A stretch of DNA of 24,231 nucleotides from a virus: positions 1 to 24,231 of the IMG/VR virus record IMGVR_UViG_3300031566_002964; one strand, given 5' to 3'. Below the pieces are notes generated by a model, which saw only the letters and a list, made by a program, of their open reading frames with translations, was not told the origin of the DNA and searched no databases. Positions 1 to 24,231 of this stretch are shown in pieces (within the stretch, counting starts at the first letter, position 1; the number at the start of each line of letters is the position of its first letter). A program made the position numbers and the translations under genes.

Positions 1-1
1 A

Positions 2-3523: not shown

Positions 3524-3524
3524 T

Positions 3525-3665: not shown

Positions 3666-3666
3666 T

Positions 3667-3810: not shown

Positions 3811-3816
3811 ATTAGC

Positions 3817-4140
3817 ATGGAAGGTTATTGCAAGTTACATAATCGGAGGTTTGTTCATTGTTGTGTCGAAACTTGTCTGGAGTATAGGATGAGGATACAG
3901 GAAGAAATTGAGCCGAGTAAATTTATTGAGAAAACCCCTGGTTTCTATGAGAAAAAGAAAATTAACGAGAAACAATTGGATATTTATGTGGAAAAAGTTT
4001 TAGATGGAATCAATTTTTATGAAGAAAGGAAAGCATTAAATAATTTATGGAAAATAGATTTTTTGAATTTTCGGCCACAACCTGACATGATCGGGCGGCC
4101 AGAAAAGGAGGAAGGATGGAAAACAGTAATGATGTGGTAG
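3817..4140 (+). CDS. Hypothetical protein with N-terminal Cys/His cluster
   Basis: A 107-residue protein preceded by one of the strongest SD sites in the window. The N-terminus carries Cys5, His8, His14, Cys15, Cys16 and Cys20 (YCKLHNRRF then HCCVETCLEYR), a spacing compatible with a small metal-binding knuckle; metal binding is inference. The rest is charged and helical (YVEKVLDGINFYEERKALNNLW). The last 25 bases overlap the scaffold-like gene in another frame. No family is recognised. Its place between portal and scaffold makes a head-assembly role plausible only by position. Confidence 0.7.
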   Translation: MEGYCKLHNRRFVHCCVETCLEYRMRIQEEIEPSKFIEKTPGFYEKKKINEKQLDIYVEKVLDGINFYEERKALNNLWKIDFLNFRPQPDMIGRPEKEEGWKTVMMW

Positions 4141-5087: not shown

Positions 5088-5114
5088 GGACGAAGCTGAA
5101 AGGAGTTAATCTAA

Positions 5115-6137
5115 ATGGCAGTTTATACAGATACAGGTGGTGCGACAATCACAACCATGATCCCAAGTTATTACAACAAGATCTGGGTTGAAAGATTAGA
5201 AGCCACTTTAGTATTCGACAAATACGGAGTCAAAGCTGATATTCCTAGAGGCGAAGGTGGTTCAATCATCTGGCACGCTCTTAGGTCTATTGGCCAGGGG
5301 TACACCCTGGACGAAACCACTCCTGCCGGGACCTCTGCGGTCTCGACTCGGAAGGTTTCTGCGGTTCCTGTTTGGAAAGCTCAATTGGTTGATGTGACTA
5401 CTCGTGTTGAAGCTACTGCGGTTAATAATGTTGTGAAAGAGGTCGTTGCTGAGATGGGATATTCAGCGGCTCTGACCAAGGACTCCGACATTGCTGACCA
5501 AATTGGTTTCGGTTCTGCTTGTTCTACTGGTGTGGCTAACGCCGCCTCAGTGACCTTGCCGAGTATTTACACTCAGGGTTTCCCTATTTACGAGGGAAAT
5601 ACCGATACTTGTTACTGGGCAGTGAAGGCTCTGCAAAATGGGTTGTTCTCTTCTGTTCCCACCGTTGCCCACGTTCGTGGTGCGGTGGCTCAGTTGCGGA
5701 CTCTCAATGCACGACCTCATTCAGATGGGACCTATCGAGGAATCATCAGCCCCAAAGCATCGAAACAAATCCGTGCCTCCACCGACTTCGTTGGATGGAT
5801 GGCTTACACGAACCGTGCAGCTATGGAACGTGGAAAACTCGGAGTTATCGAAGATGTGATGTTTGAAGAATCTTCCAACGCTATTCTCGAACCAGTTCTT
5901 GCATCGAATTGGTCGGGACATGTTAGTGCGGGAGACGTTCACGGCATTCTAATCTTCGGAAAAGGTGCTTACGGGACGACAAAGATCCGTGGAGAAGATG
6001 CGAAAGTTAATGTTCTTACTGGTGCCGACAAAGCAGATCCACACAATCTGCACACCTACATTAGCTACAAATTCGCTCATGCTTCTAAGATCCTGAATCC
6101 TTCGGCTGGAATCATTCTGAGCTGGCTGGTAGTCTAA
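5115..6137 (+). CDS. Major capsid protein, N4-gp56 type
   Basis: This 340-residue protein is the likely shell subunit. It matches the N4-gp56 family pattern: IPRGEGGSIIWHALRSIGQGYTLDE near residues 40-70, then KVSAVPVWKAQLVDVTTRVEA, the long helix region (VVKEVVAEMGYSAALTKDSDIAD), RGIISPKASKQIRASTDFVGW, and GKLGVIEDVMFEESSNAI, with the C-terminal YISYKFAHASKILNPSAGII. The family has an HK97-like fold; that is known of the family, not visible here. AAGGAGTT (5099-5106) lies about eight bases before the ATG. Codon use is more GC- and pyrimidine-ending (GTT/GCT/ATC/TCT) than in neighbouring genes, as expected for the most highly expressed gene. A GC-rich hairpin follows the stop. Confidence 0.92.
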   Translation: MAVYTDTGGATITTMIPSYYNKIWVERLEATLVFDKYGVKADIPRGEGGSIIWHALRSIGQGYTLDETTPAGTSAVSTRKVSAVPVWKAQLVDVTTRVEATAVNNVVKEVVAEMGYSAALTKDSDIADQIGFGSACSTGVANAASVTLPSIYTQGFPIYEGNTDTCYWAVKALQNGLFSSVPTVAHVRGAVAQLRTLNARPHSDGTYRGIISPKASKQIRASTDFVGWMAYTNRAAMERGKLGVIEDVMFEESSNAILEPVLASNWSGHVSAGDVHGILIFGKGAYGTTKIRGEDAKVNVLTGADKADPHNLHTYISYKFAHASKILNPSAGIILSWLVV

Positions 6138-6147
6138 CGAATCTTCT

Positions 6148-6186
6148 CATGGGGCCCAGTGGTGCTCCCCCACCCTGGGCCTCATG
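6148..6186 (+). terminator. GC-rich stem-loop after the capsid gene (attenuator, processing site or weak terminator)
   Basis: CATGGGGCCCAG (6148-6159) pairs with CTGGGCCTCATG (6175-6186): 12 pairs including one G-U, with a further GTGG/CCAC pairing possible inside the loop. No T tract follows, so it is not a standard intrinsic terminator. It could be an mRNA stabiliser or partial terminator that sets capsid transcript level above that of downstream genes. Confidence 0.5.
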
Positions 6187-6195
6187 GGGACCATT

Positions 6196-6202
6196 AAAGG
6201 AG
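6196..6202 (+). promoter_or_regulatory. Shine-Dalgarno that selects the GTG start at 6208
   Basis: AAAGGAG lies five bases before GTG 6208. The in-frame ATG at 6184 sits inside the hairpin's 3' arm and has no SD, so GTG is the better start. Confidence 0.65.
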
Positions 6203-6207
6203 AATAC

Positions 6208-6498
6208 GTGAAAAAGAAAATAGAGAAAAGGCAGTCAAAGAAGAAAAGATTTGTTCTTGATATTGATGTGGAGCCAAAGAAGGTTAAAAGGTTTGAACCA
6301 CCGAAAGATATTGTCATAGAAACAAAGCCAAAGGCTTTTTTTGAGCCATGGAGAGAATCTTACGAGAAGTTAAAAGAAAGGATTGAAGAAATTAATCCGG
6401 ATTGTGGTCGAGGTGGATGCTTGCACCCAAAAGAGAACCATGACGATTTCACTGGCGAATGCCACGATCCTGGTTGTAATTGCATAAAATTTATTTGA
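6208..6498 (+). CDS. Small protein with C-terminal Cys/His cluster
   Basis: A 96-residue protein with a very basic first 45 residues (KKKIEKRQSKKKRF) and a C-terminal Cys/His module: Cys66, Cys71, His73, His78, Cys85, His86, Cys90 and Cys92, in the order CGRGGCLHP, ENHDDFTGEC, HDPGCNCIKF. This resembles the short 'CxxCGHxxxxHxxxxGxCxxCxCxxF' modules common in small bacterial and phage proteins, thought to bind a metal. The basic arm suggests nucleic-acid contact; both roles are inference. It lies between the capsid hairpin and the aminotransferase and may be the first gene of the inserted cassette or the last of the head module. Confidence 0.75.
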   Translation: MKKKIEKRQSKKKRFVLDIDVEPKKVKRFEPPKDIVIETKPKAFFEPWRESYEKLKERIEEINPDCGRGGCLHPKENHDDFTGECHDPGCNCIKFI

Positions 6499-6509
6499 TA
6501 GGTTTATAA

Positions 6510-7640
6510 ATGCCTTTGATTGGAATAAAAAAATTCACCCAGTTTGGTACGCCTGGGATAACGGAAGATGAAATATCTGCTGTTTCCGATGTATTGAGAT
6601 CCGGTTGGCTTTCAACTGGTAACGTTTCAATGCAATTCGAGAAAGAATTTGAATCCTATACCATGTCAGAACATACAGCAATCGCTGTAAATTCTTGCAC
6701 CATGGGAATATATCTTTCTTTAAAAGCTATCGGGGTCGGACATGGTGACGAGGTTATTTTACCGCCGTTGACATTTTGTGCAACTCTTAACGCAGTTATA
6801 GCAACTGGGGCCAATCCTGTACTCGTTGATGTAAAAGAGGATGGGCAGATAAATGAAGAATTGGTTAGGAAATCAATAACAGGAAAAACGAAGGCAATAA
6901 TCCCAGTTGATTACACTGGATCTACCTGTGATTTTCTTTTGTTATCTAATATAGCGAAGAAGAACAACATCCCAATCGTTGAGGATGCTGCCCATGGATT
7001 CGGTGGAAGATATTTGATGACTACCAGAAAGATTGGGTCCATGGCAGATTTTGCTTGTTTTAGTTTCTATCCAAACAAGAATATAACGAGTGCTGAGGGT
7101 GGCATGGTTCTCGTTAAAGATCATTTAATGGCGAATAAATTACGCTCAATGTCAATGAATGGTCTTAATACTGATTCGTGGAATCGGAATGCGAATGGGA
7201 ATGGATACCAGGTTGTTACGACTGGATTCAAGGGTAATCTTCCAGATGTATTGGCGGCCATAGGATTGGTTCAGCTTAGGAGATGGAATAAAATACATGA
7301 TAAAAGACTAAGCATTTGGAGAGAATACGAGAAAAACTTTGGCAATAAGCCAATGAGCCACTCGACACATTTATACACGGTTTTGGTAAACGATAGAGAT
7401 TTATTAAGGGAGCAGATGAAGGAAAAAGGAATAGGAACAGGAGTTCATTTTAGGCCTTTGCATTTAGAGCCAGCCTATTCTTACCTTGGCTTTGTTAAAG
7501 GTTCGTTTCCAATTGCAGAACGTATTGGAGAGATGACAATCAGCCTTCCTATTTCAACATCCATGGACGGTGATGATATTTCCAACGTAATTAAGACATT
7601 GAGAGAATTGAGGCCAGAGATCATAAAAGATGAAAACTAA
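6510..7640 (+). CDS. DegT/DnrJ/EryC1/StrS-family sugar aminotransferase
   Basis: A PLP enzyme of 376 residues, the usual length for this family, which transfers an amino group to a keto-sugar nucleotide. Family landmarks are clear: SGWLSTGNVSMQFEKEF (31-47), VNSCTMGIYLSLKAIG (60-75), GDEVILPPLTFCATLNAV (79-96), VEDAAHGFGG (157-166, with Asp159 for the pyridine nitrogen), and SFYPNKNITSAEGG, where Lys190 is the expected Schiff-base lysine. The C-terminus has GTGVHFRPLHLEPAY, also typical. The exact sugar cannot be read; no dehydratase or epimerase partner is in the window, so the keto-sugar would come from the host or from genes elsewhere. The start has only a weak AGG (6500-6502). The gene overlaps the methyltransferase gene by 11 bases. 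An amino sugar made here could feed the glycosyltransferases downstream. Confidence 0.9.
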   Translation: MPLIGIKKFTQFGTPGITEDEISAVSDVLRSGWLSTGNVSMQFEKEFESYTMSEHTAIAVNSCTMGIYLSLKAIGVGHGDEVILPPLTFCATLNAVIATGANPVLVDVKEDGQINEELVRKSITGKTKAIIPVDYTGSTCDFLLLSNIAKKNNIPIVEDAAHGFGGRYLMTTRKIGSMADFACFSFYPNKNITSAEGGMVLVKDHLMANKLRSMSMNGLNTDSWNRNANGNGYQVVTTGFKGNLPDVLAAIGLVQLRRWNKIHDKRLSIWREYEKNFGNKPMSHSTHLYTVLVNDRDLLREQMKEKGIGTGVHFRPLHLEPAYSYLGFVKGSFPIAERIGEMTISLPISTSMDGDDISNVIKTLRELRPEIIKDEN

Positions 7641-8184
7641 AATAGATCATTCGTTAGCCATATCAATCAAGGAAGGCGAAATCCTTGCTGATTTAGTTAA
7701 GAAACGAGATCCGAGGAGGGTTGTTGAGGTTGGTACTGGCCATGGCTATTCAACATCGTGGATGCTGAGAAATTTAAGCGGGAATTCAATCTTGAACACA
7801 CTTGACATTAAAATGCGTAAGATTCCATACAAGATTCCCCATAACATGATTTTTTTAAACGGGAAGCTGTCGGATTATATTTACTATTTCGACAAGAACA
7901 AGATTAAGATTGATTTTTTGTTCCTCGATTCTGACCATCAAATACACAATATAGTTAAAGACGTGGAAATGATTTTGCCACATTTAACAAAAAAGGCATT
8001 GGTCGCTGTTCACGACACAATATATTGTGAGGAAATGGGGAAATGCCTTTCTGATTATTTTAATCGTCTTGATTCAGAAAGACTTAAAACCGTTGGGGTT
8101 AGACCATCTGAAGAAAAATGGATTTACAAAAATCACGACACAGAGTATGGACTTGGTGTCGCAATTCGAGGGGGAGACAAATGA
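7630..8184 (+). CDS. Class I SAM-dependent methyltransferase (Methyltransf_24-like)
   Basis: A 184-residue protein with a Rossmann SAM-binding motif VVEVGTGHGYST (31-42), an acidic strand-2 end (LNTLDIK, 56-61), IDFLFLDSDHQI (94-105) and VAVHDTIYCEEM (125-136). The DSDH/HDT pair is characteristic of Methyltransf_24 and cephalosporin-hydroxylase-like methyltransferases, often found in sugar and surface-polysaccharide clusters. It probably methylates a sugar hydroxyl or the amino group added by the upstream aminotransferase; the substrate is inference. The gene overlaps the aminotransferase by 11 bases and the next glycosyltransferase by 4 (ATGA), so the three are probably co-translated. It is more AT-rich than the capsid gene. 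Confidence 0.85.
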   Translation: MKTKIDHSLAISIKEGEILADLVKKRDPRRVVEVGTGHGYSTSWMLRNLSGNSILNTLDIKMRKIPYKIPHNMIFLNGKLSDYIYYFDKNKIKIDFLFLDSDHQIHNIVKDVEMILPHLTKKALVAVHDTIYCEEMGKCLSDYFNRLDSERLKTVGVRPSEEKWIYKNHDTEYGLGVAIRGGDK

Positions 8185-9863
8185 CAGAGTTAAGGAGAGA
8201 TCCGTTAATTAGTTTCATTGTTCCTGTGTACCAGGTAACAAAGGATATGCTTAAGCGTTGCCTTGAAAGCCTTGTAACGCAGGACTACCAGAACATTGAG
8301 ATCGTTGTTACATTCGACGGACCGGATGATGATCTTCTACCAGTTGTTGGAGATTACTTGAAAAGGCATAAGAATATAAAGGTTATAGAGATAGAACACG
8401 CCGGGGCCTGTGCCGCTAGGAACGCAGGGTTCAAGGCTTCAAGTGGTGAGATTATATCTTTCTTCAATTCTGACTATGTAGCAAAGCCTGGGATGGCGAA
8501 GTTGTGGGTTGATACATTGCAAGACCATCCAGAATTCGGATTTGCATATGGAGCATATGAGTGGAACTCAAGTAACCGAAGTGTTTACTGGTCCAAGGAA
8601 TTTGACGAATTTGAATTAACCCAGGCGAATTACATTGATTGTGGTTTCCCTTTATGGAGAAAACACGTCGTCGAATGGGACCCGGAGGTCAAGTCATTGC
8701 AGGATTGGGACTTCTGGATTCGGGTTGTTAAGAACGGAGTCAAGGGGTACTACCTGACGAGAGACATTAGTTTTGTGGCAGAAATGCCACGCCCTGGCGG
8801 CTTGTCAATGGACTCACACCAAAACTGGGTGGCCAGGGTTAAATTCGTAAGAGAGAAGAATGGGATTCCAACTACTGACATGGTGGCCTGTTCCATTGGT
8901 GCCCCGTTCCACGGGTCCAAGATGGCCCAGATGATCGGGTGCGATTACGATGACGGGGACCATATCATTATGAAGCCAAATGATTACAAGGCTTTGTACA
9001 TGATCGGGTTCTTTATGAGGCCCGCAGATGTTAAGAATATGCACTCAAACATTCTTGGCAAGTTCAAGGATAAGAAGATTATTATTCATTACATTGGAGC
9101 CGATATCTATTGGCTCAGGAAGTTCACAACCGAAGAGCTTAAATTGATTTCAGGTGTTTTGAATAGAGGGAATGCGACGGTTCTGTGCGAGACAGAACTG
9201 GCACAGAAGGAACTTAAGGATTATGGGATAAATTCCGAGATTGTACCGATTCCACCTTACACCGACCTTGATATTAAGCCTTTACCAGAGAAGTTCTCTT
9301 GTGCGATCTTTCTAACCGACAAGAGCAACTTCGACAAGTATTGCCAGAAGGAGACATTATCAATCGTCAGGGCATTGCCAACGGTTAAATTTCATGCCTA
9401 TGGAGATGCCTGCCACGATATCCAATACCCGAACATGATTCACCACGGGAACATGACGACAGAGGAATGGGAGAAGTTTGTGTATAAAACCTCAAGTTAT
9501 TTGAGGATTTGTAGACATGATACTCGTCCGATGGCCTCTGATGAGTTCCTTTTAGCAGGCCGGGATGTCATTAGCAACATTCCAGGCATCGGAGTGGATT
9601 ATATTGACACTGGAGGAGATCCGGAGAAGATGGAGTTCGATCCATTCGAGATAGGTCTAAACGATTCTTATTGGCCGGACACGAAGAAGAAGATCGTTAA
9701 GGCAATTCTAAGTGCAAAGAATAACATCCGATCAGAGGCAGACCGGAGAGATGTGAGGGCAAGACTAGCTTGGGATTTGGATAAACAGAAATATAAAGAC
9801 TTGATTAATTCATTCATTGAAGAAGAAGATAAGGTACTAATAGGGGGAGAATGTGGAAAATAA
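8181..9863 (+). CDS. Bimodular glycosyltransferase: GT2 (GT-A) domain plus GT-B-like C-terminal domain
   Basis: A 560-residue protein. Residues 8-220 are a GT2 domain: ISFIVPVYQVTKDMLKRCLE, VVTFDGPDDD, GACAARNAGFKASSGEIISF, and a nucleotide/metal site FFNSDY at 94-99 where the canonical DxD is N-S-D. LQDWDFWIRV (173-182) fits the acceptor/base region. Residues 255-530 look like a second, GT-B-like module: IIIHYIGADIYWLRKF, ATVLCETELAQKELKDYGI, KFHAYGDACHDI, HHGNMTTEEWEKF and RPMASDEFLLAGRDVISN, the last resembling the GT4 donor-site end. The ATG at 8181 has GGGGGAGA (8170-8177) just upstream and an ATGA overlap with the previous stop; longer in-frame starts lack this. It probably adds one or two sugars to a glycan or protein. 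Confidence 0.85.
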   Translation: MTELRRDPLISFIVPVYQVTKDMLKRCLESLVTQDYQNIEIVVTFDGPDDDLLPVVGDYLKRHKNIKVIEIEHAGACAARNAGFKASSGEIISFFNSDYVAKPGMAKLWVDTLQDHPEFGFAYGAYEWNSSNRSVYWSKEFDEFELTQANYIDCGFPLWRKHVVEWDPEVKSLQDWDFWIRVVKNGVKGYYLTRDISFVAEMPRPGGLSMDSHQNWVARVKFVREKNGIPTTDMVACSIGAPFHGSKMAQMIGCDYDDGDHIIMKPNDYKALYMIGFFMRPADVKNMHSNILGKFKDKKIIIHYIGADIYWLRKFTTEELKLISGVLNRGNATVLCETELAQKELKDYGINSEIVPIPPYTDLDIKPLPEKFSCAIFLTDKSNFDKYCQKETLSIVRALPTVKFHAYGDACHDIQYPNMIHHGNMTTEEWEKFVYKTSSYLRICRHDTRPMASDEFLLAGRDVISNIPGIGVDYIDTGGDPEKMEFDPFEIGLNDSYWPDTKKKIVKAILSAKNNIRSEADRRDVRARLAWDLDKQKYKDLINSFIEEEDKVLIGGECGK

Positions 9864-10560
9864 ACCAAAGATATCTTTTGTTGTGCCAACGAAAGACCGG
9901 ATTGAGTGGGTGGCTGAATGCGTAGGTAGTCTTTTGGCCCAGACTGAGAAGGACATCGAGGTAATTGTCGTAGACGATGGATCTAAGGATGGGACCTACG
10001 AGATGTTGACCGAGTGGCTCAAGGATGAAAAACGATTCAGGATATTCAGGAACGAGGAATCTATTGGAGCAGGTAAGTCTCGGAACCGTGGTACAGCCGA
10101 GGCAAAGTCTGACTTGATTGGTGTCTGTGACGATGATGACTTTTACTCCGTCAATAGGGCAGAGGTTACAATCAATTTCTTTAAAGACAAGGAAGATAAA
10201 GCCGTTATGTTCAATGCTCCATATCTGCGGGTAAATTACACTGGTGATCCGATAGAGATGTTCAAGGGGGAAAAGTTCGACGTTGAAGGATTCAAGAAAT
10301 TTGGTCGAGTTAATTATTTCTGTCATCCTGTTTGTGCTTACTGGAAGGGCGACTTCGATGAGGTCGGAGGGTACAACTCCGAGACCGACAAGTTGACAGA
10401 TGATTATCAATTCGTTGGTGATTGGATTAAAGCAGGAAAAGATATTGCATTTGAGGATACGGACTACCTTTGTTTCCATCGTGTGCTTCCTACGTCTATT
10501 ATGGCAAAGCATAGAGGATTCAGGGAAGAATGGGTAAGGGGGGATAAACCAGTATGCTAG
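9853..10560 (+). CDS. GT2-family glycosyltransferase
   Basis: A 235-residue single-domain GT-A enzyme. It starts at GTG with GGGGGAG (9842-9848) five bases upstream and overlaps the previous gene by 11 bases. Motifs are KISFVVPTKDRIEWV (6-20), VIVVDDGSKDGTYE (37-50), GAGKSRNRGTAEAKSD (72-87) and VCDDDDFY (91-98), which supplies the DxD for metal and nucleotide-sugar binding. LTDDYQFVGDWIKAG matches the acidic base segment. This family transfers sugars from UDP/GDP/dTDP donors with inversion. Acceptor and donor are unknown. It lacks membrane segments, so it should act in the cytoplasm on a glycan or virion protein. Confidence 0.88.
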   Translation: MENKPKISFVVPTKDRIEWVAECVGSLLAQTEKDIEVIVVDDGSKDGTYEMLTEWLKDEKRFRIFRNEESIGAGKSRNRGTAEAKSDLIGVCDDDDFYSVNRAEVTINFFKDKEDKAVMFNAPYLRVNYTGDPIEMFKGEKFDVEGFKKFGRVNYFCHPVCAYWKGDFDEVGGYNSETDKLTDDYQFVGDWIKAGKDIAFEDTDYLCFHRVLPTSIMAKHRGFREEWVRGDKPVC

Positions 10561-12392
10561 AAAAGAAAGGCACCAAGGAAGAATTTATAAATGAACACAT
10601 TCATTACCCGGACATCTGGCCTGGTGGGATAGAGAATTATCCTTTCACTAGATCGAGGATTCTCCCCATTTATTACGAGATCCCAGAAGGTGCAAAGGTG
10701 TTGGACGTTGGTGCCAATTCTGGCGAGTTCATGCAATTGCTTAAAAAGAAGAAGGGTTGTGACGTAACCGGAGCCGACATATCTGACGTTGTTGTGGAGA
10801 TAGCCAAAAAGAAAGGTCTTAACATGGTCCACGTTGATGCTGAGACATTGCCATTCCCTGACAATACGTTTGATGTTGTTACTCTAATGGAGACTCTTGA
10901 GCATTTCCACGAACCTATTAAGTATCTAAAAGAAATAAGTCGAGTTCTTAAGCCAGGAGGTTACATTCTTGGCACTTGTCCTCATGCGAACCTTGAAAGG
11001 TACGTCCATGAAGATTCCAGGCTTCATCACCAATATTACACGGAAGAAAGTCTTTATAAGGATTTAAAAGAGGCATTTGGAGATGTTCATATTAAGTCAT
11101 TAACAGGCGGTCAGTACAGCCTTGGATTTATCAATAGCCATTTAGCAAGCGAACCATGCGAGCTTTTATTTAAAGCAGGTAAGGGTAAATGTGAACCATG
11201 GGAATCAATCATTCAAAATACCAACGATACTAGAGTTTGGTGGGGATTCACTCAGTTGGCCGGAGTTGTTTACTACCGTATGAGAGGATATGCAGAGAAG
11301 ATGGGAATACATGGGATAGAATCCGGGTTCGAGATGTTCCCTTATAACGGGAGCGAGTCACAGATGAAATGGCAGGAAAGGATCCATTCTGGAATCTTAC
11401 AGAACGAGCTTGAATCAATCTTAAAGGTTTCAGATATTTCTATTTGGCAGGTAATGTCCTCCAAATGGGGTGTTGCGTTCCTTCAATGTGCCAAGGATTT
11501 AATAGGGAAGCCGATTGTCACAGAGGTGGATGACTGGTTGTTTGACCTTCCGTCTTACAACATAGCGTCACACCCGTTTAAGCCAAATTCAGACATGGAG
11601 AGGATGGCCTATATGCAATTGGAGCTTTCCGATGCCATTATTTGTTCGACTCAGTACATTAAAGACGGGCTAAAGAAATTCTTCCCTAACAAGCCGATGT
11701 ATGTGGTCAGAAATTCCATCGACTTCGCTCTTTGGGAAAACACAGAGATTAAAGCACCAGATATGTATCCAAAGGAAGAGGGCGTGATCCGGATAGGTTA
11801 CACAGGGTGTGCTAATCACAACGGAGACCTAGAGTTGATTCGGCGGCCATTGAGGAAGATTGTCGAGAAGCACCCTCAGGTCGAGTTCATGTGTTACCAG
11901 GAGTTTGATGCCCTGAAAGGACTCCCACGGGCTAAATACACGAACAAATGGGTAACGATTGACAGGTATCCAGATGAGATAAGGCGTTGGAACCTTGATA
12001 TCGGGATTGCCCCGTTGAGGGACAATGACTTTAATCGGTCCAAGTCTAACCTTCGGTGGCTTGAGTACTCAGCAATGAAAATCCCAACGATTGCGAGTGA
12101 TGTTTACCCGTTCACCAACAGCATATCGCATACAAACAACGGGATATTGGTCAAGAATTCAGATTTAGATTGGTTTGAAGCCTTGGAAGAGTTGGTTTTA
12201 AATCAGAAGAAAAGGCTAAAAATAGGCGAGAAATCCTATCAAACCGTAAAGAACAAATTCAACATGGATAAGGTGTCTGGGGAGTACGCCGCTATCCTGA
12301 AGGAGATAAAATGCAACGGAGTGACATCGAAACAGAAATTGGCAGACTCCTCGGAGATCCAAACCATGACCGTTGGAGCGTCACAGCCCTAA
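10554..12392 (+). CDS. Methyltransferase-glycosyltransferase fusion
   Basis: A 612-residue two-domain protein. Residues 30-200 are a class I methyltransferase: AKVLDVGANSGEF (47-59), VTGADISD (71-78), LPFPDNTFDVVTLMETLEHF (99-118) and RVLKPGGYILGTCPH (130-144). Residues 290-586 form a GT-B/GT4-like glycosyltransferase: EVDDWLFDLP (324-333), DAIICSTQYIKDGL, YVVRNSIDFALW, IRIGYTGCANHNGDLE (a P-loop-like donor site), NLDIGIAPLRDNDFNRSKS and RWLEYSAMKIPTIAS. The 26 residues after Lys586 are read out of frame from the adaptor gene and look like accidental extension. The start overlaps the upstream GT by 7 bases, with only a G-run SD (10536-10543). Fused methyltransferase-glycosyltransferases suggest capping or modification of a growing glycan; the acceptor is unknown. 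Confidence 0.85.
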   Translation: MLEKKGTKEEFINEHIHYPDIWPGGIENYPFTRSRILPIYYEIPEGAKVLDVGANSGEFMQLLKKKKGCDVTGADISDVVVEIAKKKGLNMVHVDAETLPFPDNTFDVVTLMETLEHFHEPIKYLKEISRVLKPGGYILGTCPHANLERYVHEDSRLHHQYYTEESLYKDLKEAFGDVHIKSLTGGQYSLGFINSHLASEPCELLFKAGKGKCEPWESIIQNTNDTRVWWGFTQLAGVVYYRMRGYAEKMGIHGIESGFEMFPYNGSESQMKWQERIHSGILQNELESILKVSDISIWQVMSSKWGVAFLQCAKDLIGKPIVTEVDDWLFDLPSYNIASHPFKPNSDMERMAYMQLELSDAIICSTQYIKDGLKKFFPNKPMYVVRNSIDFALWENTEIKAPDMYPKEEGVIRIGYTGCANHNGDLELIRRPLRKIVEKHPQVEFMCYQEFDALKGLPRAKYTNKWVTIDRYPDEIRRWNLDIGIAPLRDNDFNRSKSNLRWLEYSAMKIPTIASDVYPFTNSISHTNNGILVKNSDLDWFEALEELVLNQKKRLKIGEKSYQTVKNKFNMDKVSGEYAAILKEIKCNGVTSKQKLADSSEIQTMTVGASQP

Positions 12393-13051
12393 GGGATCGC
12401 ACTCAGGAGGCCCAGATAGCTGTTCAGGCCCTTACAAATGCGATTAGGACGGTTGAGACCCTAACACCTACGGCAGAGACCCAGGAAGTTGACATAAACG
12501 ATAATACCATCGACATCATTAGGGCCACCATAACGGATTCAGATGGTGACATTTTAGCTTTAGAGGGCAGAAGCCGAAGTGACCTTGATTTTTACGTCCC
12601 CAACTGGGAAAACCAGGATTCTGGGAAACCTACCCATTTTTTCTACGATGCCTCCAACAATCAGTTGGTTTTGTACCCCAAACCTTCCGCAGATTACGCC
12701 ATTGCCGATGCCCTAAAGGTCTGGGAGGTCAGGATTCCAGAAGAATTGACAGGCGATACAGACGAACCATTCGATAATAATGCCGCAATGCAAGCCTACG
12801 CCAATTCCATTGTTCACTGGGTAGTAGCTCAATGTTGGATGGATGACGGAACCCCTGAGGCCCTTGGAAAGTCTAGATTCCATAAGTCTGGATCTATTGA
12901 GAACCCAGGAGAGTTTGAAAAATACATACGATTAATCAATGCGAAATTCAATGCTCCGTCAGTTATTCCTGCCAGGATTAAGTGGTATCCGCAAGGTGGG
13001 CGGGTAGGTGGGCGGAGAGTAAGTAAATCGAATCCGTTTGGAGGATACTGA
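12311..13051 (+). CDS. Head-tail adaptor (connector) protein
   Basis: A 246-residue protein of the kind that forms the ring below the portal (T7 gp11/P22 gp4-like role). The pattern is typical: an N-terminal helical pair (IETEIGRLLGD, WSVTALRDRTQEAQIAVQAL), then TPTAETQEVDINDNTIDIIRAT, a 'G-x-P-x-x-F' segment GKPTHFFYDASNNQLVLYPKP (about residues 114-134), and a helical C-terminal region with VHWVVAQCWMDDGTPEAL. It is followed at once by the beta-propeller tail gene, as expected. AGGAG (12301-12305) sits five bases before the ATG and confirms the start, even though the upstream fusion gene continues 82 bases into it in another frame. The C-terminus is basic and Gly-rich (GGRVGGRRVSKSN). Confidence 0.85.
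   Translation: MQRSDIETEIGRLLGDPNHDRWSVTALRDRTQEAQIAVQALTNAIRTVETLTPTAETQEVDINDNTIDIIRATITDSDGDILALEGRSRSDLDFYVPNWENQDSGKPTHFFYDASNNQLVLYPKPSADYAIADALKVWEVRIPEELTGDTDEPFDNNAAMQAYANSIVHWVVAQCWMDDGTPEALGKSRFHKSGSIENPGEFEKYIRLINAKFNAPSVIPARIKWYPQGGRVGGRRVSKSNPFGGY
13040..13045 (+). promoter_or_regulatory. Shine-Dalgarno that selects the TTG start at 13053
   Basis: GGAGGA lies seven bases before TTG 13053. The more upstream in-frame TTG at 13038 overlaps this SD and has none of its own. Confidence 0.7.
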
Positions 13052-13052
13052 G

Positions 13053-15854
13053 TTGATTAAAAGATTATTAACGCTAGGATGCCTTCTAGGGGCTCTAATA
13101 TGCCCCACAATGGACGTTTTTGGCCAGGACGTATCCCAGTACCCTTTAATGCCATTCGGGACGCTTAATGACTCGGATAACCCCCTTGTATTGCAGGGGA
13201 ACATGGCCCAGGACCTTCTTAATGTCGATATTAGCCCAGGCGGGTTGTCGATTATTAAGCGAGAAGGGTATTCGTTACAGCACGATTTAACCATTACGAC
13301 TTCACCCGTTCATGGTATTTATAATTTCTTTGATTCCAATGGTAATGAGGTACAGCTTTATTTTAACGATGGATATGTGTCCGCTTCCGTTGGAGGTACC
13401 TATCCCGATGTCCTTTTATCCACTCAAACCCTGGATGCCACATGGCAATGCACCGATGGGGAAGGATACGCATATTGCGTTACCAATGGAAGGAATGGAT
13501 TATTAAAGACAAACGGGGTCTCTTACAGTTGGATTATTCCGGTTGCTACCGGGACGATGGTAACAATGAGCCAGACAAGAATGGCCATGGCCGGATTCTC
13601 TGATTATCCAAATCGTGTCGATTTTTCTGGATCTGTTGACTTTACGGATTGGGTATTGGGAACGGAAGATTATGATCCAATCAATTTTACGATTGTGGCC
13701 CCAGGTGCCAAGATAACGCATTTGACTTATGCTTTCGGTAAGTTTATATGGTTTAAGGAAAATTCTTTTGGATTTATCTTGGAAGGTGATACTTTAGACG
13801 ATTGGATGATTCGGACAATATCTCCGAATGTCGGGACGGTGGATAATACGTCTGTTTACTACAACGGGATTCTTTATTTTAGAGGTAACGACAGTCATAT
13901 TTATGCTTATGATGGGTCTAATCTCACAGTCACATCTAAAGATATTTCTACACTGGTTGATTCGGCTCAATCTAAACTTTCAAATTCGTGGTCCCAATCG
14001 AGTTATTCAGATTTCACGACTGGTTCATCCATCACCGCATCTGGTTATTTAACGGTATCACAGACGGAAAACTCAATATTTTTAACCACTGGAACACCAC
14101 CTACATCATTAGTTGATACTTCTGAAGCTGATTTTAGTTCTGGGACAGTTTCAAATACAACCACCACAGTTGTACCTGGGTCTGTATTATTAGAATTTAT
14201 TTCAGATTCAACGAATAGGCTTGATTATTCGGCTTCAACGTCTGCTGCGAATGCCTATTGTTTAGCAAGCCCGGATTTTGGAATTTCTCAGCAATTTATA
14301 GCAACACATACTTTCCATATTTCATCAATTACAATAGGTGTTGATAAAGTTGATGCTGGAGGTATTGGTGATTGGAAAATACAGTTGAGGGATGACAATT
14401 CAAATACACCCGGTATATTATTACAAGAAATTGATTTGTTGGCAACAGATATTCCAGCAGGTGCGAGTTTGTATTCAACTAATTTTGCAACAACAACAAA
14501 AATATCGTCTGGAACGGCATATTGGATTTCGTTGGTTTTCGACCAAGGTAGTGGGAGTTGTAGTTTGGTTGGGCCAACAACTAGAATAGCATGGGATCAA
14601 CTTGATGTAGCAGGGCCTTTTGATACCTATTCAACACAAACACCGGCATTAATAAATACAAATAAAAGGCATTTTCTTGAGGTTTATGGTATCGGATATT
14701 CGACATCCGGTTTTTTTACATCTCGCCCACATAATGTTGATTTATCAACAGATACATGGTTATGGTCCTGGGGTATACTTGAATCAACAGAGGTTTTGAA
14801 TTCACAATCAATAACTTATGAAACTCAAACAGCAACATCATCAACTGGTGTATGGGAATCTTTAGTTTCTGTATCTGGTGGAATTCCAATATCAAGTGTT
14901 AAGGAATATATTAGGTATAGGGCAAATTTGTTAACAACAGATTCGTCTACATCTCCAATAATAAATGATGTAACGATAAATATGGGAGACAAAGTTAGAC
15001 CAGAAGGAATTTATTATTCTCCTGTCCATGATACTCAAAATGTAACCTCCTGGGATTCATTTTCATCTGATTATTCCTTAAATAATGGGACGATTGATTT
15101 TTATGTTCGTGCGTCAACAGGTGAATTTTCCGTAAATTCAACAACCCCAACCTGGACAAGTGTTTCAAACGGAGATATTCCTTCGATATCAACTGGGATT
15201 TATTACCAAAACAGAGCAGATTTCTCTGTTACCCATTCAACACAGGAGCCGATATTGAATAGTTTCACTCAAAATTGGTTTGAAGGAGCAGCAGATGATA
15301 AAAGTTATGCTATTTATTTTGATGATGGGATTTGGTGGTCAATTACTGCGGGAGATGGGGCCACATATAATAACAAGGTTCTTCGTCTGGATCTTCAAAA
15401 CAATGGATTTACTGTTTACGATATCCCTGCTAATGGGTATCTCGTAAGGGCTCAAAATCTTTATTTCGGAAGTTCTGTTTACGGGAAGATTTACAAATTT
15501 GGTGACGTAGATAGCGACGACGGGTCCGATATCGAAGCCTATTGGAAATCGAAGGATTATTCAGCCGGGTTGCCATTTCAAGATAAAGAATTGGTCAACG
15601 TATCTCTAGCGGCTGATAGCGTTGAGAATTCTACTGTTACTGTGTCTTACCAAGTTGGTTCAACTGAATCTTCATACAATGTGCCATTGGAGGCACCTGG
15701 CGAAGAATCAACGAAATACAATAAGAATATTCCGTCTGGTACTTATGGCCAGATAATGAATTTCAAGATTGGCAACGATGCCTCTGATCAGCCATTTGAG
15801 ATATTCGGGTTCCAAATTGGCATTCGGGCTAAACCATGGAGGCCAACCCCGTGA
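13053..15854 (+). CDS. Large beta-propeller tail (nozzle-like) protein with signal peptide and inserted beta-sandwich domains
   Basis: A 933-residue protein. The TTG start is set by the SD and gives MIKRLLTLGCLLGALICPTM, then DVFGQD, a Sec-type signal peptide with possible cleavage near residue 25. After it comes PFGTLNDSDNPLVLQGNMAQDLLNVDI, typical of phage propeller/nozzle proteins that follow the adaptor. Propeller strands recur through residues 50-300 (VHGIYNFFDSNG, QVSLYFNDGY-like blades, FGKFIWFKENSFGFIL, YFRGNDSHIYAYDG). About 403-548 is an insert resembling the choice-of-anchor R type (FHISSITIGVDKV, LRDDNSNTPGILLQ, GTAYWISLVFDQG). Then come two similar beta-sandwich repeats (about 553-645 and 653-745), and propeller-like sequence resumes. 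The middle (about 14080-15270) is more AT-rich than its flanks. It probably forms the tail tip and binds glycans; that is inference. Confidence 0.8.
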   Translation: MIKRLLTLGCLLGALICPTMDVFGQDVSQYPLMPFGTLNDSDNPLVLQGNMAQDLLNVDISPGGLSIIKREGYSLQHDLTITTSPVHGIYNFFDSNGNEVQLYFNDGYVSASVGGTYPDVLLSTQTLDATWQCTDGEGYAYCVTNGRNGLLKTNGVSYSWIIPVATGTMVTMSQTRMAMAGFSDYPNRVDFSGSVDFTDWVLGTEDYDPINFTIVAPGAKITHLTYAFGKFIWFKENSFGFILEGDTLDDWMIRTISPNVGTVDNTSVYYNGILYFRGNDSHIYAYDGSNLTVTSKDISTLVDSAQSKLSNSWSQSSYSDFTTGSSITASGYLTVSQTENSIFLTTGTPPTSLVDTSEADFSSGTVSNTTTTVVPGSVLLEFISDSTNRLDYSASTSAANAYCLASPDFGISQQFIATHTFHISSITIGVDKVDAGGIGDWKIQLRDDNSNTPGILLQEIDLLATDIPAGASLYSTNFATTTKISSGTAYWISLVFDQGSGSCSLVGPTTRIAWDQLDVAGPFDTYSTQTPALINTNKRHFLEVYGIGYSTSGFFTSRPHNVDLSTDTWLWSWGILESTEVLNSQSITYETQTATSSTGVWESLVSVSGGIPISSVKEYIRYRANLLTTDSSTSPIINDVTINMGDKVRPEGIYYSPVHDTQNVTSWDSFSSDYSLNNGTIDFYVRASTGEFSVNSTTPTWTSVSNGDIPSISTGIYYQNRADFSVTHSTQEPILNSFTQNWFEGAADDKSYAIYFDDGIWWSITAGDGATYNNKVLRLDLQNNGFTVYDIPANGYLVRAQNLYFGSSVYGKIYKFGDVDSDDGSDIEAYWKSKDYSAGLPFQDKELVNVSLAADSVENSTVTVSYQVGSTESSYNVPLEAPGEESTKYNKNIPSGTYGQIMNFKIGNDASDQPFEIFGFQIGIRAKPWRPTP
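15838..15842 (+). promoter_or_regulatory. Shine-Dalgarno that selects the GTG start at 15851
   Basis: GGAGG lies eight bases before GTG 15851. The in-frame ATG at 15836 overlaps the SD and so is unlikely to be the start. Confidence 0.7.
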
Positions 15855-16561
15855 AGAAATTACTATTTCTTTTGATCTTTTATCCGGTAATTGGGTTGTG
15901 CGAGGGACCGATATATCAGCACAAAGATCCATTTGTCCAGTTGGAGATTGAGAACATTTACAAAGATATTCGATCCGGGATAAATAGATATCTATCTCAA
16001 TCCAGTGTTACATCTACCTATTTAATGAATTCGAGTGCAACGGCAACTTATATTCCATATATCGGAGCAAATACAGACATTAATCTCGGAGAGAATGATT
16101 TAACGATTGCCGGGACTGTTACACAAACAGCACAACCATCATTTTTGGCTATAAGTACAACCACCCAATCGGATGTTACCGGAGATTCTACTGAGGCAGT
16201 TGTTGTTTTTGGAACCAAGGTTTATGATTTAGGAGACGATTTTTCAACACAAGTTTTTACGGCACCTGTTGGAGGGAAGTATTGGTTTGGATGCCAGGTA
16301 AGACTTGATGACCTTTTGAATTCTGGTGCCGCCGCCTTGACTTTAAAATTGAACACAGCAAACCGGGATTATTGGTCTTACTTTGTGGATGTTGGATTTG
16401 GGTCAGACAGAGAAACGTTTGCCATCTCTGCGGTAGCTGACATGGACGCAAACGATACTGCCCATTGCAGCGTTAAGGCAGATTCAGGGACTAAAACCGT
16501 AGAGATTGATGGGAACGGAAGTGTAATGGTTACTTATTTTTCAGGATCTTTAATTAATTGA
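15851..16561 (+). CDS. Exported fibre-like protein with C1q/TNF-like C-terminal domain
   Basis: A 236-residue protein whose GTG overlaps the previous stop (GTGA). The N-terminus MKKLLFLLIFYPVIGLCEG reads as a signal peptide. Next comes a short helical/collar stretch (PFVQLEIENIYKDIRSGI), then YIPYIGANTDINLGENDLTI, a motif common in phage tail fibres, and from about residue 95 a jelly-roll of C1q-like type: VVVFGTKVYDLGDDF, FTAPVGGKYWFGCQVRLD, and the closing VMVTYFSGSLI. C1q-like heads trimerise and serve as receptor-binding tips in several phages. It sits between the propeller and the ejection genes, so a small tail fibre or tip knob is likely. The role is inferred from fold pattern and location. 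Confidence 0.75.
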   Translation: MKKLLFLLIFYPVIGLCEGPIYQHKDPFVQLEIENIYKDIRSGINRYLSQSSVTSTYLMNSSATATYIPYIGANTDINLGENDLTIAGTVTQTAQPSFLAISTTTQSDVTGDSTEAVVVFGTKVYDLGDDFSTQVFTAPVGGKYWFGCQVRLDDLLNSGAAALTLKLNTANRDYWSYFVDVGFGSDRETFAISAVADMDANDTAHCSVKADSGTKTVEIDGNGSVMVTYFSGSLIN

Positions 16562-16568
16562 GGTGAAT

Positions 16569-16895
16569 ATGAGAAAGTTAATTTTTGTTTTGTTTTTGAT
16601 TCCTTCGGTATCCTTTTGTGAGACGATAACCGTCACCCATTCGGATGGTAGGTCCGCTATTATTGATGATTCGGAAATCAAGATAGTTGAGAATGATGTG
16701 ATTGACGCATTTGAGTGGCTAGAGGGTGCCTGGAATGGGAAAGTAAGTAGTTGCGAGAGCAGGATAATTGACCAAGAGGTAATAAAGTCGATTGAGAATG
16801 GAGAACAAATCCCAATTTTAAAAGAAGATATTGTTCAAAAATATTTTGACCGTCCTGGGTATAAGAACAGGAAAGACAAGGAAAAGGAGAAATAA
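16569..16895 (+). CDS. Small exported protein with signal peptide
   Basis: A 108-residue protein. GAGGTGA (16560-16566) precedes ATG 16569, which is preferred over the overlapping GTG at 16563. MRKLIFVLFLIPSVSFC is a clear hydrophobic leader. The mature part is acidic then basic: ITVTHSDGRSAIIDDSEIKIV, a short beta-rich piece resembling an SH3-like or 'HxDGR' strand pair, followed by helix (VIDAFEWLEGAWNGKV) and a Lys/Glu tail (RKDKEKEK). No family is recognised. The leader closely resembles that of the large deacetylase fibre at 21147, including its SD. Possible roles include a periplasmic accessory or fibre chaperone; nothing decides. Confidence 0.65.
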   Translation: MRKLIFVLFLIPSVSFCETITVTHSDGRSAIIDDSEIKIVENDVIDAFEWLEGAWNGKVSSCESRIIDQEVIKSIENGEQIPILKEDIVQKYFDRPGYKNRKDKEKEK

Positions 16896-20530: not shown

Positions 20531-21150
20531 TGGATATATTCGACAAGATTGCAATCCAAGACACAAACAGCAAGAAACCTGTCATTCTCCGAGTTCTATC
20601 TCCTTCACAGAAAGAGGATATATTCGATAAGTTAGAGAAGGAATTTCGGCCTCTTGTTAAGAAGTTATTAACGGAACCGAATAAGAATGACGTAGAAATG
20701 ACCAAGAGGATGCTTTCTCTTATAAGGGGAGAGTTGTCGAAGATCAAGATGCCTGAAAAGGTGATCGAGAAGATCATAGAAAAGGAGATAGTCAAAGAGC
20801 CAAAGAAAGACATTCCAAAGCCTGTAGACAATAAGCTAAGCAGACAGATAGAAGATTTGATTAAGAAGGTTTCTGAGTTAGAGACTGATTTAAGAAAAGA
20901 GCAGGGCAGATCCCATATATACTCGGTTCCAATTCGATTGCCTGAGCAGATGGGGAATGGGAATAAGTTTCTCAAAACTATTGAATCGGGAGGCGGGTCT
21001 ACAATGCAATGGCAGGATGTTATATCTGCCTTTGACAATACTTATTTCCCAACTGGAAAAGGGTTAGTGTTTCAATCGCCAGATGGGACATTTTATTTAT
21101 TGAGCGTAGGGAACGGGGGCGTTCTCCAAACCACAGAGGTGACACCTTGA
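20530..21150 (+). CDS. Coiled-coil protein ahead of the tail fibre
   Basis: A 206-residue protein with a GTG start overlapping the previous stop by one base and GGGAGG (20516-20521) eight bases upstream. Residues 10-85 are helical. Residues 80-130 form a Lys/Glu heptad-like coiled coil (KVIEKIIEKEIVKEPKKD; LSRQIEDLIKKVSELETDL). The C-terminal 70 residues are beta-rich (SHIYSVPIRLPEQMG, FDNTYFPTGKGLVFQSPDG, TFYLLSVGNGGVLQTT). A coiled coil leading into a small beta-rich end suggests a trimeric fibre adaptor or base for the deacetylase fibre encoded next. No family is recognised. Confidence 0.65.
   Translation: MDIFDKIAIQDTNSKKPVILRVLSPSQKEDIFDKLEKEFRPLVKKLLTEPNKNDVEMTKRMLSLIRGELSKIKMPEKVIEKIIEKEIVKEPKKDIPKPVDNKLSRQIEDLIKKVSELETDLRKEQGRSHIYSVPIRLPEQMGNGNKFLKTIESGGGSTMQWQDVISAFDNTYFPTGKGLVFQSPDGTFYLLSVGNGGVLQTTEVTP
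21136..21142 (+). promoter_or_regulatory. Shine-Dalgarno that selects the TTG start at 21147
   Basis: GAGGTGA, a full match to the anti-SD complement, lies four bases before TTG 21147. It makes this TTG the natural start of the long open frame that runs off the window. Confidence 0.75.
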
Positions 21151-24100
21151 AAAGATTAATTCCGTTTTTATTTCTTCTATGTCCTTCGATATCGTTTGCA
21201 TGGACAGCAGTAGGATCTCCGGTTGGGACGATACAACTGAGGAATGACCTGCAAAGTGGAGCGACTCTCTATGTGTCAAGTGGAACAATAGAGGGAAATT
21301 TATATGTTGATAGTCTATTCCAGGTTGGAACACCTGGGATATCAATGAGTGATGCCGATTTATATTTTGATGCAGGGACTGTGTACCCAGGACTTCATTT
21401 GAATATAGATGATCCAACTGGATCGCAACTAAATACAATTTATTTTGACATTTCCAATACAGAGAATGATTATATTCAGTACGCACTGGCTTCTGGATTT
21501 AATGTTTACGTTGCGTCAAGCGGTCCTACGCTAAGATTCAGCATAGCCAGGACAAACGGCGGCACAATATCCATGAAGGATGACCAGGGGGTAGAGAAGT
21601 TTTCAGTCCACACGGATTCGGTTACATCTTTCGCTAATTTATTCGCAGACAAGAATTTCATTTCTACCGGACAGATAACCAATAGCGGTGAGGATTCCCC
21701 ATTTGTTTTTGGCCATACTAGATCAAACAAATTTGACTTAACCGCAAGATCAACAGCCACAACCAGAACACCAATGGTCACATTCATGTTCGATGATGGA
21801 TATCTTACAGATTATACAATAATGTTTTCCACGGCCCAGGCCAAGGGTGTTCCAATGGGTTGTGCAATCGTAACAGATGCAATTGGAACTGCTAATTATA
21901 TGACCCAGGAACAGATATTAGAACTCCAATCCGCTGGATGGGAAATAATGAGCCATACAAAATCCCATGTTGATTTACGAACATTAAACGAGGATCAACT
22001 TGTGGAAGAATTGAGAGGTTCTAAGTTGGCACTTGAAAGTTTCGGTTGTGTTGTGAATAATTTTGTGAATCCATTCCATTACTCAGGAGAGTTTATCCGC
22101 AATATCATAAAGAGATATTACAGGGCAGCAAGAAGCAACGATGCAAACACATATCCGAACAACCAATCTGTTCTGTATACATACAAACTTGGTGGATATT
22201 TGGCGGGGGCACTTAGCGAGGCAGCTATGGAAGCTATAGTTGATTCAGCGGAGACATCCGGTGAATGGGTGATATTTTATCTACATCAAACGGATGCTGC
22301 TGACGCAACACGAATAGGGAATGTCATTGATTATATTCAGGCCAAGGGAATAGCAATTGTTACAATCAATGAGGCATTGAATGAGTGGGAAAACATAATT
22401 GATTACGGGGATCAGGGGATGGGTACATCTTTCTCTCTTGCCCCAGATGGATCAATAAAAGCCAATACAGTAGGTGCAGTAGGATCTGTAGAGATTTGGA
22501 ATCCGGCATATCCCCAGGCACACAATGTTTCATTGACCTATTCTGGATCAGATTTAATGCTAACTCCATATGGAGCGAATGACGTAAAAACAGCAGCCGG
22601 GATAGCATCTTTCAGGCCAAACGACAGAAGGTTGACTGAGCTTGGACAAACATCAGCCGAGTGGGCCACGGTTTGGGCCAAGGGCATGTCGTCAAGCTAT
22701 CAAGACTTAAATTTCCAAGCAGCCCGTGATATATTCCTTAAAACTGGAGGTGCCGTAACCAGGCTTGAGGTAGACGAAGGTGGAGAATTCAAATTCCAGG
22801 GTAACGATCTCACGGGAATTGGGAATCTCACATCCACTGGAACCGTGCAGGTTGGACAGGTTTACTCAACATTTACAGCGAATGGTTCTGCAACCACCTA
22901 TATGAAGAAGAACCTCTACAATCTTCCATACGATAGTTTTGAGGGTGAAACGGCATATCTCGATGACACCACAATGAATGTTACCGGGACAATTGTTGCC
23001 GGTGCGTCATACGGGAGGCGATTAAATATCCTTGATTCTTCTGACATTGAAATAACAGATGCAGGATCATATACAATCCACTCGGATTATATAAACCGTG
23101 CATTTTCAGGAACGATGGGTGGAGAAGCTGATTCTTCAGTAAGTCTATATGGCCGATATACAGGTCTTTCTGGAAACATGGCAGACACAAATTCGACTGT
23201 TAATAAATATGGTCATAAAATAGTGGTTGCTGGAACGGGCGATCTCAATATTGGATTGGATGTAGCCGCCGGAGAGGCAACGTCCAATATTGCCATCAAT
23301 GTTCTTGCCGGGGATGTAATCATAGCTGCTGATGACACGAAACTTAGCCTTGGGGCCGCAGGATCAGTGGACAGTTATCTTCAATTCGGTGGAACCGACC
23401 TGGAATATTACTCATCTGGAAGCCATGTTTTCACCGGGACTGTGGCGGCTGAGGGGATTTCCATAGATTCGACGATCAACCACACAATAGTAGATTCGTC
23501 TGGCGATCTTATAATAACAAACCCAAATTTGAACGAAGATATTTTCTTTAATTTCAATGATGATAGCACGATGAAAACAATTGGAATTGATAGCTCAAGA
23601 AGCAGACTTTATTTACCAGCCAGTGGGATACTTGAAATCGGGGACGCAGAGATAACAAATGGGTCGAACAGCTACCAATTAAAAACAGCCGCCCATTGGT
23701 GGTCGGATGGGAGGATGAGTATCGGACCAGCTTCCCCGGAAAACGATTACAGCATTAAAATTGTTGGACAGGATACGTCAAGCAACACGCATTTATATTA
23801 CGGAAAACTTGATGACGAACATACCGACTATTTTCTTCAGTTTGTTGACGAGGGGGACACAGACAAACTTCTTATTCCTGCGGACGGAAGTATTGTTTCC
23901 GCAGGGATGGTTCGTCAAGCATCCACATGGCACGTTTATGGCGGGACACAAGCCGCTTCCACAACTATTCCATGTGCGACCCAGGACACATGGTACATGA
24001 TGACCGATGCACAGGGGTTATGGAATGGTACGGAGGCCGATGGGTTTACTCTTGCCGGGGACACAATGACAGTAACCAATACCGGAGATTATTCCGGTTC

Positions 24101-24231
24101 GTTGTCAATGACATTTTCAGATTCCACCGGGAGAGATTTCCAGTTTCGTGTTTACAACATAACCACAGCCGCCTCCGCTACCTTGAGCATTGGGGCCACA
24201 ACAACCGGGGCAACAAATTTTGCGAACGTCA
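21147..24231 (+). CDS. Tail fibre/spike with CE4 polysaccharide deacetylase domain and signal peptide (3' end outside window)
   Basis: The frame is open from TTG 21147 to the window end, at least 1028 codons, and overlaps the previous stop (TTGA). Residues 1-18, MKRLIPFLFLLCPSISFA, are a textbook signal peptide with an S-x-A cleavage site. Residues 20-200 are fibre-like beta repeats. Residues about 208-400 are a CE4/NodB deacetylase: FMFDDGY (Asp216 and Asp217), SHTKSH (His270 and His274; the H-[ST]-x-x-H metal motif), NPFHY (308-312, at the position of motif 3), and IFYLHQTD (His380). CE4 enzymes remove N- or O-acetyl groups from chitin-, peptidoglycan- or capsule-type glycans using a divalent metal. 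The rest is long, Gly/Thr/Asp-rich fibre sequence (LGAAGSVDSYLQFGG; LYLPASGILEIGD), ending in a jelly-roll-like segment (from about residue 940). It probably deacetylates the host surface polysaccharide during adsorption. Confidence 0.88.
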   Translation, partial: MKRLIPFLFLLCPSISFAWTAVGSPVGTIQLRNDLQSGATLYVSSGTIEGNLYVDSLFQVGTPGISMSDADLYFDAGTVYPGLHLNIDDPTGSQLNTIYFDISNTENDYIQYALASGFNVYVASSGPTLRFSIARTNGGTISMKDDQGVEKFSVHTDSVTSFANLFADKNFISTGQITNSGEDSPFVFGHTRSNKFDLTARSTATTRTPMVTFMFDDGYLTDYTIMFSTAQAKGVPMGCAIVTDAIGTANYMTQEQILELQSAGWEIMSHTKSHVDLRTLNEDQLVEELRGSKLALESFGCVVNNFVNPFHYSGEFIRNIIKRYYRAARSNDANTYPNNQSVLYTYKLGGYLAGALSEAAMEAIVDSAETSGEWVIFYLHQTDAADATRIGNVIDYIQAKGIAIVTINEALNEWENIIDYGDQGMGTSFSLAPDGSIKANTVGAVGSVEIWNPAYPQAHNVSLTYSGSDLMLTPYGANDVKTAAGIASFRPNDRRLTELGQTSAEWATVWAKGMSSSYQDLNFQAARDIFLKTGGAVTRLEVDEGGEFKFQGNDLTGIGNLTSTGTVQVGQVYSTFTANGSATTYMKKNLYNLPYDSFEGETAYLDDTTMNVTGTIVAGASYGRRLNILDSSDIEITDAGSYTIHSDYINRAFSGTMGGEADSSVSLYGRYTGLSGNMADTNSTVNKYGHKIVVAGTGDLNIGLDVAAGEATSNIAINVLAGDVIIAADDTKLSLGAAGSVDSYLQFGGTDLEYYSSGSHVFTGTVAAEGISIDSTINHTIVDSSGDLIITNPNLNEDIFFNFNDDSTMKTIGIDSSRSRLYLPASGILEIGDAEITNGSNSYQLKTAAHWWSDGRMSIGPASPENDYSIKIVGQDTSSNTHLYYGKLDDEHTDYFLQFVDEGDTDKLLIPADGSIVSAGMVRQASTWHVYGGTQAASTTIPCATQDTWYMMTDAQGLWNGTEADGFTLAGDTMTVTNTGDYSGSLSMTFSDSTGRDFQFRVYNITTAASATLSIGATTTGATNFANV

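Follow-up and report, generated by a model that had tools for sequence, protein, structure and literature searches.

The last reading frame of a viral contig encodes a long, adhesin-like protein that carries a CE4 polysaccharide deacetylase domain in its N-terminal half. There is about an even chance that this protein is a tail-fibre or spike adhesin of an SU10-like podovirus, which trims host polysaccharide through its CE4 domain and is made as a Sec preprotein that is loaded onto virions late. The more unusual aspect is its apparent secretion-type start, which is shared with three neighbouring genes and would be needless for tail proteins assembled inside the cell. The DNA analysed (hereafter the window) is the entire IMG/VR record IMGVR_UViG_3300031566_002964, a linear fragment of 24231 bases.

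Genes in the window are ordered as a partial large terminase, portal, major head protein, a block of sugar genes, adaptor, and tail and other late genes, with the CE4 frame last. Three of them were assigned as follows:

Positions 1191–3275, plus strand: portal protein, SU10 type (PF23899, E=6.2e-21), without signal peptide
Positions 5115–6137, plus strand: major head protein (phrog_1357, E=2e-26), without signal peptide
Positions 12311–13051, plus strand: head-tail adaptor, SU10-type (PF24175, E=8.5e-20), without signal peptide

The window is a fragment of an SU10-like podovirus, and the CE4 gene falls within its tail module, downstream of the genes for portal, head and adaptor and of further late genes. 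The portal and adaptor families are common to the window and to SU10-like and phiEco32-like podoviruses, though the portal is distant (its best matches among cultured phages reach about 20-22% identity) and the structural genes of phiEco32, unlike four tail-module genes of the window, lack signal peptides. Against cultured phages, the other tail proteins that were compared gave either no match or no more than a general similarity to spikes, and a host search for portal matches in 543 genomes, from the phyla of two CE4-bearing bacteria, returned distant portals only. A second contig from a different metagenome (L002) is 99.9% identical across window positions 1-9030. The sugar genes, at 6510-12392, are placed between the head and tail genes and encode a DegT-type aminotransferase (PF01041, E=4e-98), a methyltransferase, two family-2 glycosyltransferases and a methyltransferase-glycosyltransferase fusion; their products may act on sugars of the host surface or on glycans of the virion.

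The CE4 gene and its start were read as follows:

Positions 21147–24231, plus strand: TTG-started gene for a fibre-like adhesin that contains the CE4 domain (frame open for at least 1028 codons; codon usage in frame)
Positions 21135–21142, plus strand: ribosome-binding site AGAGGTGA (GAGGTGA), read directly, 4 nt before the TTG

The frame reading and the GAGGTGA site bear out the uninterrupted frame of at least 1028 codons, with a Shine-Dalgarno sequence before a TTG, that a preliminary description had claimed. The 3′ end of the frame lies beyond the contig, from which the C-terminus of the protein is missing. Upstream of 21147 the same frame stays open for 37 codons, the TTG being the first start codon there, and this TTG overlaps the TGA of the preceding gene. 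Compared with its 7-base site, the later starts are preceded by a 4-base GGAG site (GTG 21273) or by none (ATG 21345). With the other window genes as reference, codon usage favours frame 1 over the other two along the ORF, by a narrow lead across the first 50 codons. The next in-frame ATG (21345) is codon 67. The earlier warning that an ATG-only gene finder would miss the gene or cut its N-terminus applies to such a program alone, since the commonly used gene finders allow TTG starts. The ‘fibre-like repeats’ of the same description proved to be an impression of composition: BLASTP self-comparison detected no self-repeat, and neither PHROG nor Pfam fibre domains matched. Outside the CE4 domain, searches of the ORF against Pfam (above cutoff) and PHROG likewise matched no N-terminal tail-anchor domain or fibre family. 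Viral scans with single sequences (the whole fibre, the CE4 domain and the product of gene 13053) found no relatives; two-sequence alignments worked as queries where these gave none.

Domain and motif positions within the protein are:

Positions 21759–22391, plus strand: CE4 deacetylase domain, residues about 205-415 (PF01522, AlphaFold, Foldseek)
Positions 21792–21797, plus strand: motif 1, F215-D216-D217-G218, in which D216 is the catalytic base (by family rule) and D217 a metal ligand, invariant in alignments A1 and A4
Positions 21954–21968, plus strand: motif 2, H270-T-K-S-H274, metal ligands, both histidines invariant in A4
Positions 22068–22082, plus strand: motif 3 position, N308-P-F-H-Y, with the proline invariant in A4 and the usual arginine absent
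Positions 22281–22286, plus strand: motif 5, L379-H380, with the catalytic-acid histidine invariant in A1 and A4

The FDDG, H-T-x-x-H, NPFHY and LH motifs previously noted by eye were thus located at residues 215-218, 270-274, 308 and 379-380, and they stand above chance. The HMM search that had been proposed matched Pfam PF01522 (Polysacc_deac_1) over residues 205-299 with E=7.8e-11 and 42.4 bits, above the cutoff of 23.1. An AlphaFold model built from 18 sequences (mean pLDDT 81, pTM 0.80, most of the core >90) has the deformed (beta/alpha) barrel of CE4, whose absence had been named as grounds for refutation. In Foldseek searches of the PDB the model matched solved CE4 enzymes best (7ax7, E=1.5e-9; 7fbw; 2j13), with further matches to 2c71 and to the turret protein of virus HFTV1 (8qpg, TMq 0.70); searches of BFVD matched viral tail proteins. 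Residues D216, D217, H270, H274 and H380 are all invariant among the 18 relatives in A4, and the fold match suggests that the ligands have the geometry of a CE4 metal site. Motif 4 could not be assigned in this domain. At motif 3, Asn-Pro-Phe replaces the arginine, which most near relatives also lack; loss of this arginine is a known variation inside the CE4 family, and its absence was therefore not counted as exclusion from it. The claim of a CE4 deacetylase built into a phage tail fibre is supported in part: the predicted CE4 fold and the metal-site residues are present inside a long protein of adhesin type, encoded by the last tail-module gene on the contig.

The main substrates of CE4 enzymes are N-acetylglucosamine polymers and acetylated xylan. 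The domain would most likely act in a metal-dependent manner on contact, removing acetyl groups from acetylated sugars of the host surface polysaccharide, and this deacetylation would let the phage bind the polysaccharide or pass through it; the acetylated capsule or exopolysaccharide proposed earlier would fit as substrate. In a tree of 28 CE4 domains, the window domain is nearest to those of two phage records (L013 and L016), followed by secreted CE4 proteins of Geobacteraceae and Nitrospirota, both placements without strong support. Its bacterial relatives are secreted proteins or lipoproteins.

CE4 domains in viral adhesion proteins have precedents, including tail proteins of Arthrobacter, Gordonia, Staphylococcus and Bacillus phages and the HFTV1 turret. 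Searches with tblastn found similar CE4 domains in 19 records of cultured phages, where several of the proteins bear the annotation tail fiber or minor tail protein. A NodB-type deacetylase as a fibre domain is hence uncommon, as first described, but its rarity was overstated given these 19 records and the HFTV1 capsid turret. Long proteins with an internal CE4 domain include the tail fiber of Staphylococcus phage Madawaska, the minor tail protein of Gordonia phage Forza, proteins of Arthrobacter phages and gp673 of Bacillus phage G; these share 24-29% identity with the window over the CE4 domain, but belong to different phage groups with mostly Gram-positive hosts. The capsid turrets of HFTV1 bear a zinc-bound CE4 domain, whose zinc site was resolved by cryo-EM and for which trimming of host glycans at adsorption has been proposed (PMC12494034). 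The turret head protein (gp31; PDB 8qpg) resembles the window protein in its CE4-type deacetylase domain, though it resides on the capsid of an archaeal virus and its CE4 domain is C-terminal. Deacetylating tail proteins are otherwise represented by gp63.1 of phage G7C and gp66 of Pectobacterium phage Possum, which are SGNH enzymes (PMC9569702). They share the role of host-polysaccharide-deacetylating tail adhesin proposed here, but have an unrelated fold and mechanism, being serine hydrolases rather than metal-dependent enzymes. As adhesin domains, CE4 deacetylases add to the lyases, glycosidases and SGNH esterases already counted among tail enzymes, and they might find use against biofilm sugars or capsules that are acetylated.

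Four genes of the window are predicted to have a canonical signal peptide at a start backed by a ribosome-binding site, according to a rule-based scan that required a charged n-region, an uncharged hydrophobic stretch and a small residue at -1 (slashes mark the predicted cleavage sites):

Positions 21147–21200, plus strand: predicted Sec signal peptide of the CE4 gene, MKRLIPFLFLLCPSISFA/WTAVG, cleavage before W19 (rule-based scan with controls)
Positions 13053–15854, plus strand: 933-aa tail-module protein directly after the SU10-type adaptor, signal peptide MIKRLLTLGCLLGALICPTMDVFG/Q (TTG start, GGAGG site)
Positions 15851–16561, plus strand: fibre-like protein, signal peptide MKKLLFLLIFYPVIGLC/E, cleavage site uncertain (GTG start, GGAGG site)
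Positions 16569–16895, plus strand: small protein, signal peptide MRKLIFVLFLIPSVSFC/E, cleavage site uncertain (ATG start, GAGGT site)

The CE4 protein is thus predicted to begin as a canonical Sec preprotein, a feature overlooked in the preliminary description that complicates a simple assignment to the virion. No signal peptide was found by the scan in the 14 other window genes tested, among them the portal, head, adaptor, ejection-type and sugar genes. T7, P22, phiEco32 and lambda supplied 64 control genes, nearly all of them structural, of which lom and Rz1 alone scored, both known to be exported; bor scored as expected; random internal segments of window proteins never passed (0/20000). 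Three of the four signals are obscured if the longest frames are taken, as these begin at 13038, 15836 and 16563. The product of gene 13053 is possibly the nozzle, by position alone; its structure prediction from one sequence was unusable (pLDDT 32). The 15851 protein matches phrog_15750 (E=2.8e-9) and, weakly and below cutoff, a C1q-type domain (E=0.0011). Inheritance of the signal together with a secreted bacterial CE4 domain was considered and is unlikely, given that about 185 residues of other sequence lie between the two and that three neighbours have signals too.

Comparable starts occur in other phage records. The nearest case is a tail protein (L013; PHROG tail family, E=5e-15) of IMG/VR record 3300037484_001098 (G001), which has a 46% identical CE4 domain and begins with a signal peptide, but whose CE4 domain is C-terminal and whose tail set is T7-like rather than SU10-like. 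Two further proteins of this record have signal peptides: a 664-aa protein with CBM96 and a weak resemblance to lyase-14, and a 578-aa spike whose C-terminal domain is of the K1-lyase type (PF24146, E=6.5e-12; G001:34649-36385, L065:14649-16382), whose signal MKRLRVLMALLFHVSFLPALPGWA/A was missed by the rule-based scan and called by eye. The portal, head protein, T7-like fibre anchor and ejection protein of G001 have none, and the spike gene follows the anchor gene immediately. In record G003 (L066:9514-13672) a stand-alone 232-aa CE4 protein lacks a signal, while the 467-aa gene that overlaps it and two further genes nearby have one. In the Nitrospirota search group, one genome has a contig (L081:3529-4985) on which two signal-peptide genes come after the portal, the second of them resembling a collar fibre. 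The cultured-phage CE4 proteins that were read start without a Sec signal, except for the ‘glucosaminyl deacetylase’ of Arthrobacter phage Gorpy (L006:1811-3172), which starts with a Tat-like twin-arginine signal KRRGLLRLGTLLTALTGASTLSSMSAEAA and thereby suggests export of some of the CE4 proteins of phages.

These starts leave three options: fibres that are exported and join the tail late, enzymes secreted to act at the surface of the infected cell, or a signal that goes unused. A virion adhesin is favoured by the PF01522 match, the CE4 model, the BFVD matches to tail proteins, the invariant residues and the position of the gene; by relatives fused into tail proteins (Madawaska, Forza and L013); and, if fibres are exported and join late, by the signal peptides themselves, G001 repeating the combination of CE4 tail protein and spike, both with signals. 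Counting against it are a Sec signal unexpected on a protein assembled on the tail in the cytoplasm, the lack of a known N-terminal tail anchor, the absent motif 3 arginine, the unplaced motif 4 and a C-terminus beyond the contig. Under the virion-adhesin reading, the TTG-started preprotein would be expected to pass through the infected cell's inner membrane, and the exported fibre would join virions at a late stage such as lysis. Rather unlikely, though it deserves serious consideration, is an exported phage enzyme and adhesin that functions off virions, secreted by the infected cell to deacetylate the host's own polysaccharide in the periplasm or at the surface. Such an enzyme could block superinfection, prevent new virions from adhering to debris or, ahead of lysis, make the coat looser. 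It would account for a canonical signal at the best-supported start and in three neighbours, and is in keeping with the secreted or lipoprotein bacterial CE4 relatives, the twin-arginine signal of Gorpy, and the G001 anchor without signal beside a spike with one. However, the gene in nozzle position has a signal too, yet virions would be expected to contain a core component of the tail; in several other phages the domain belongs to a protein with a tail fibre or minor tail protein annotation; and the length and composition of the CE4 protein are fibre-like.

The two remaining explanations keep the fibre on the virion and question either its catalysis or its start. A CE4 pseudoenzyme that recognises an acetylated glycan without cleaving it is improbable: the motif 3 arginine is absent and CE4 pseudoenzymes are known, such as the Foldseek match BA3943, but the metal-binding and both catalytic residues are invariant across 18 relatives, most of them equally without the arginine. 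Very improbable is a start further in, at GTG 21273 or ATG 21345 for example, which would reduce the signal peptide to an artefact and the protein to an ordinary fibre assembled in the cytoplasm. The weak GGAG before the GTG and the narrow codon-usage preference in the first 50 codons agree with such a start, but the TTG has the longer site and the stop/start overlap, and four genes of one module give signals at their best-supported starts, which no random segment does.

More broadly, it is tentatively proposed, as a rather doubtful generalization, that in some uncultured phages the tail adhesion proteins (fibres, spikes and possibly the nozzle) are Sec preproteins that are exported and either loaded outside the cytoplasm or used at the cell surface. 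If such adhesins are indeed exported, tail completion or trimming of the host coat would take place beyond the inner membrane; functional signal peptides would challenge the rule that the tails of tailed phages are finished in the cytoplasm, for which the window offers a directly testable case. Searches of open-access full text turned up no account of tail fibres with Sec signal peptides; for rumen Bacteroides phages, one or two proteins with signal peptides are reported, unnamed in the passages concerned (PMC5723332).

In the larger of two pattern samples of viral contigs, signals were found in 1/45 S74-type fibre frames and in 5/271 other frames of the same loci, and signal peptides as a general feature of fibres were rejected on these counts. 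The rate in the window (4/18) is higher, with a Fisher p of about 0.001 for a contig that was not randomly chosen. Predicted signal peptides on fibres and spikes therefore appear rare but repeated, recurring in several unrelated uncultured phages while scarce overall. The two samples together provided three more fibre frames with signals (L092, L121 and L136), of which L092 (reverse complement 6996-12819) is a 1725-aa frame directly after tape-measure and tail genes. All three are long fibre genes in tail modules with signals that end in A/Q or G/Q, a style common in Bacteroidota, and may reflect a habit of Bacteroidota phages.
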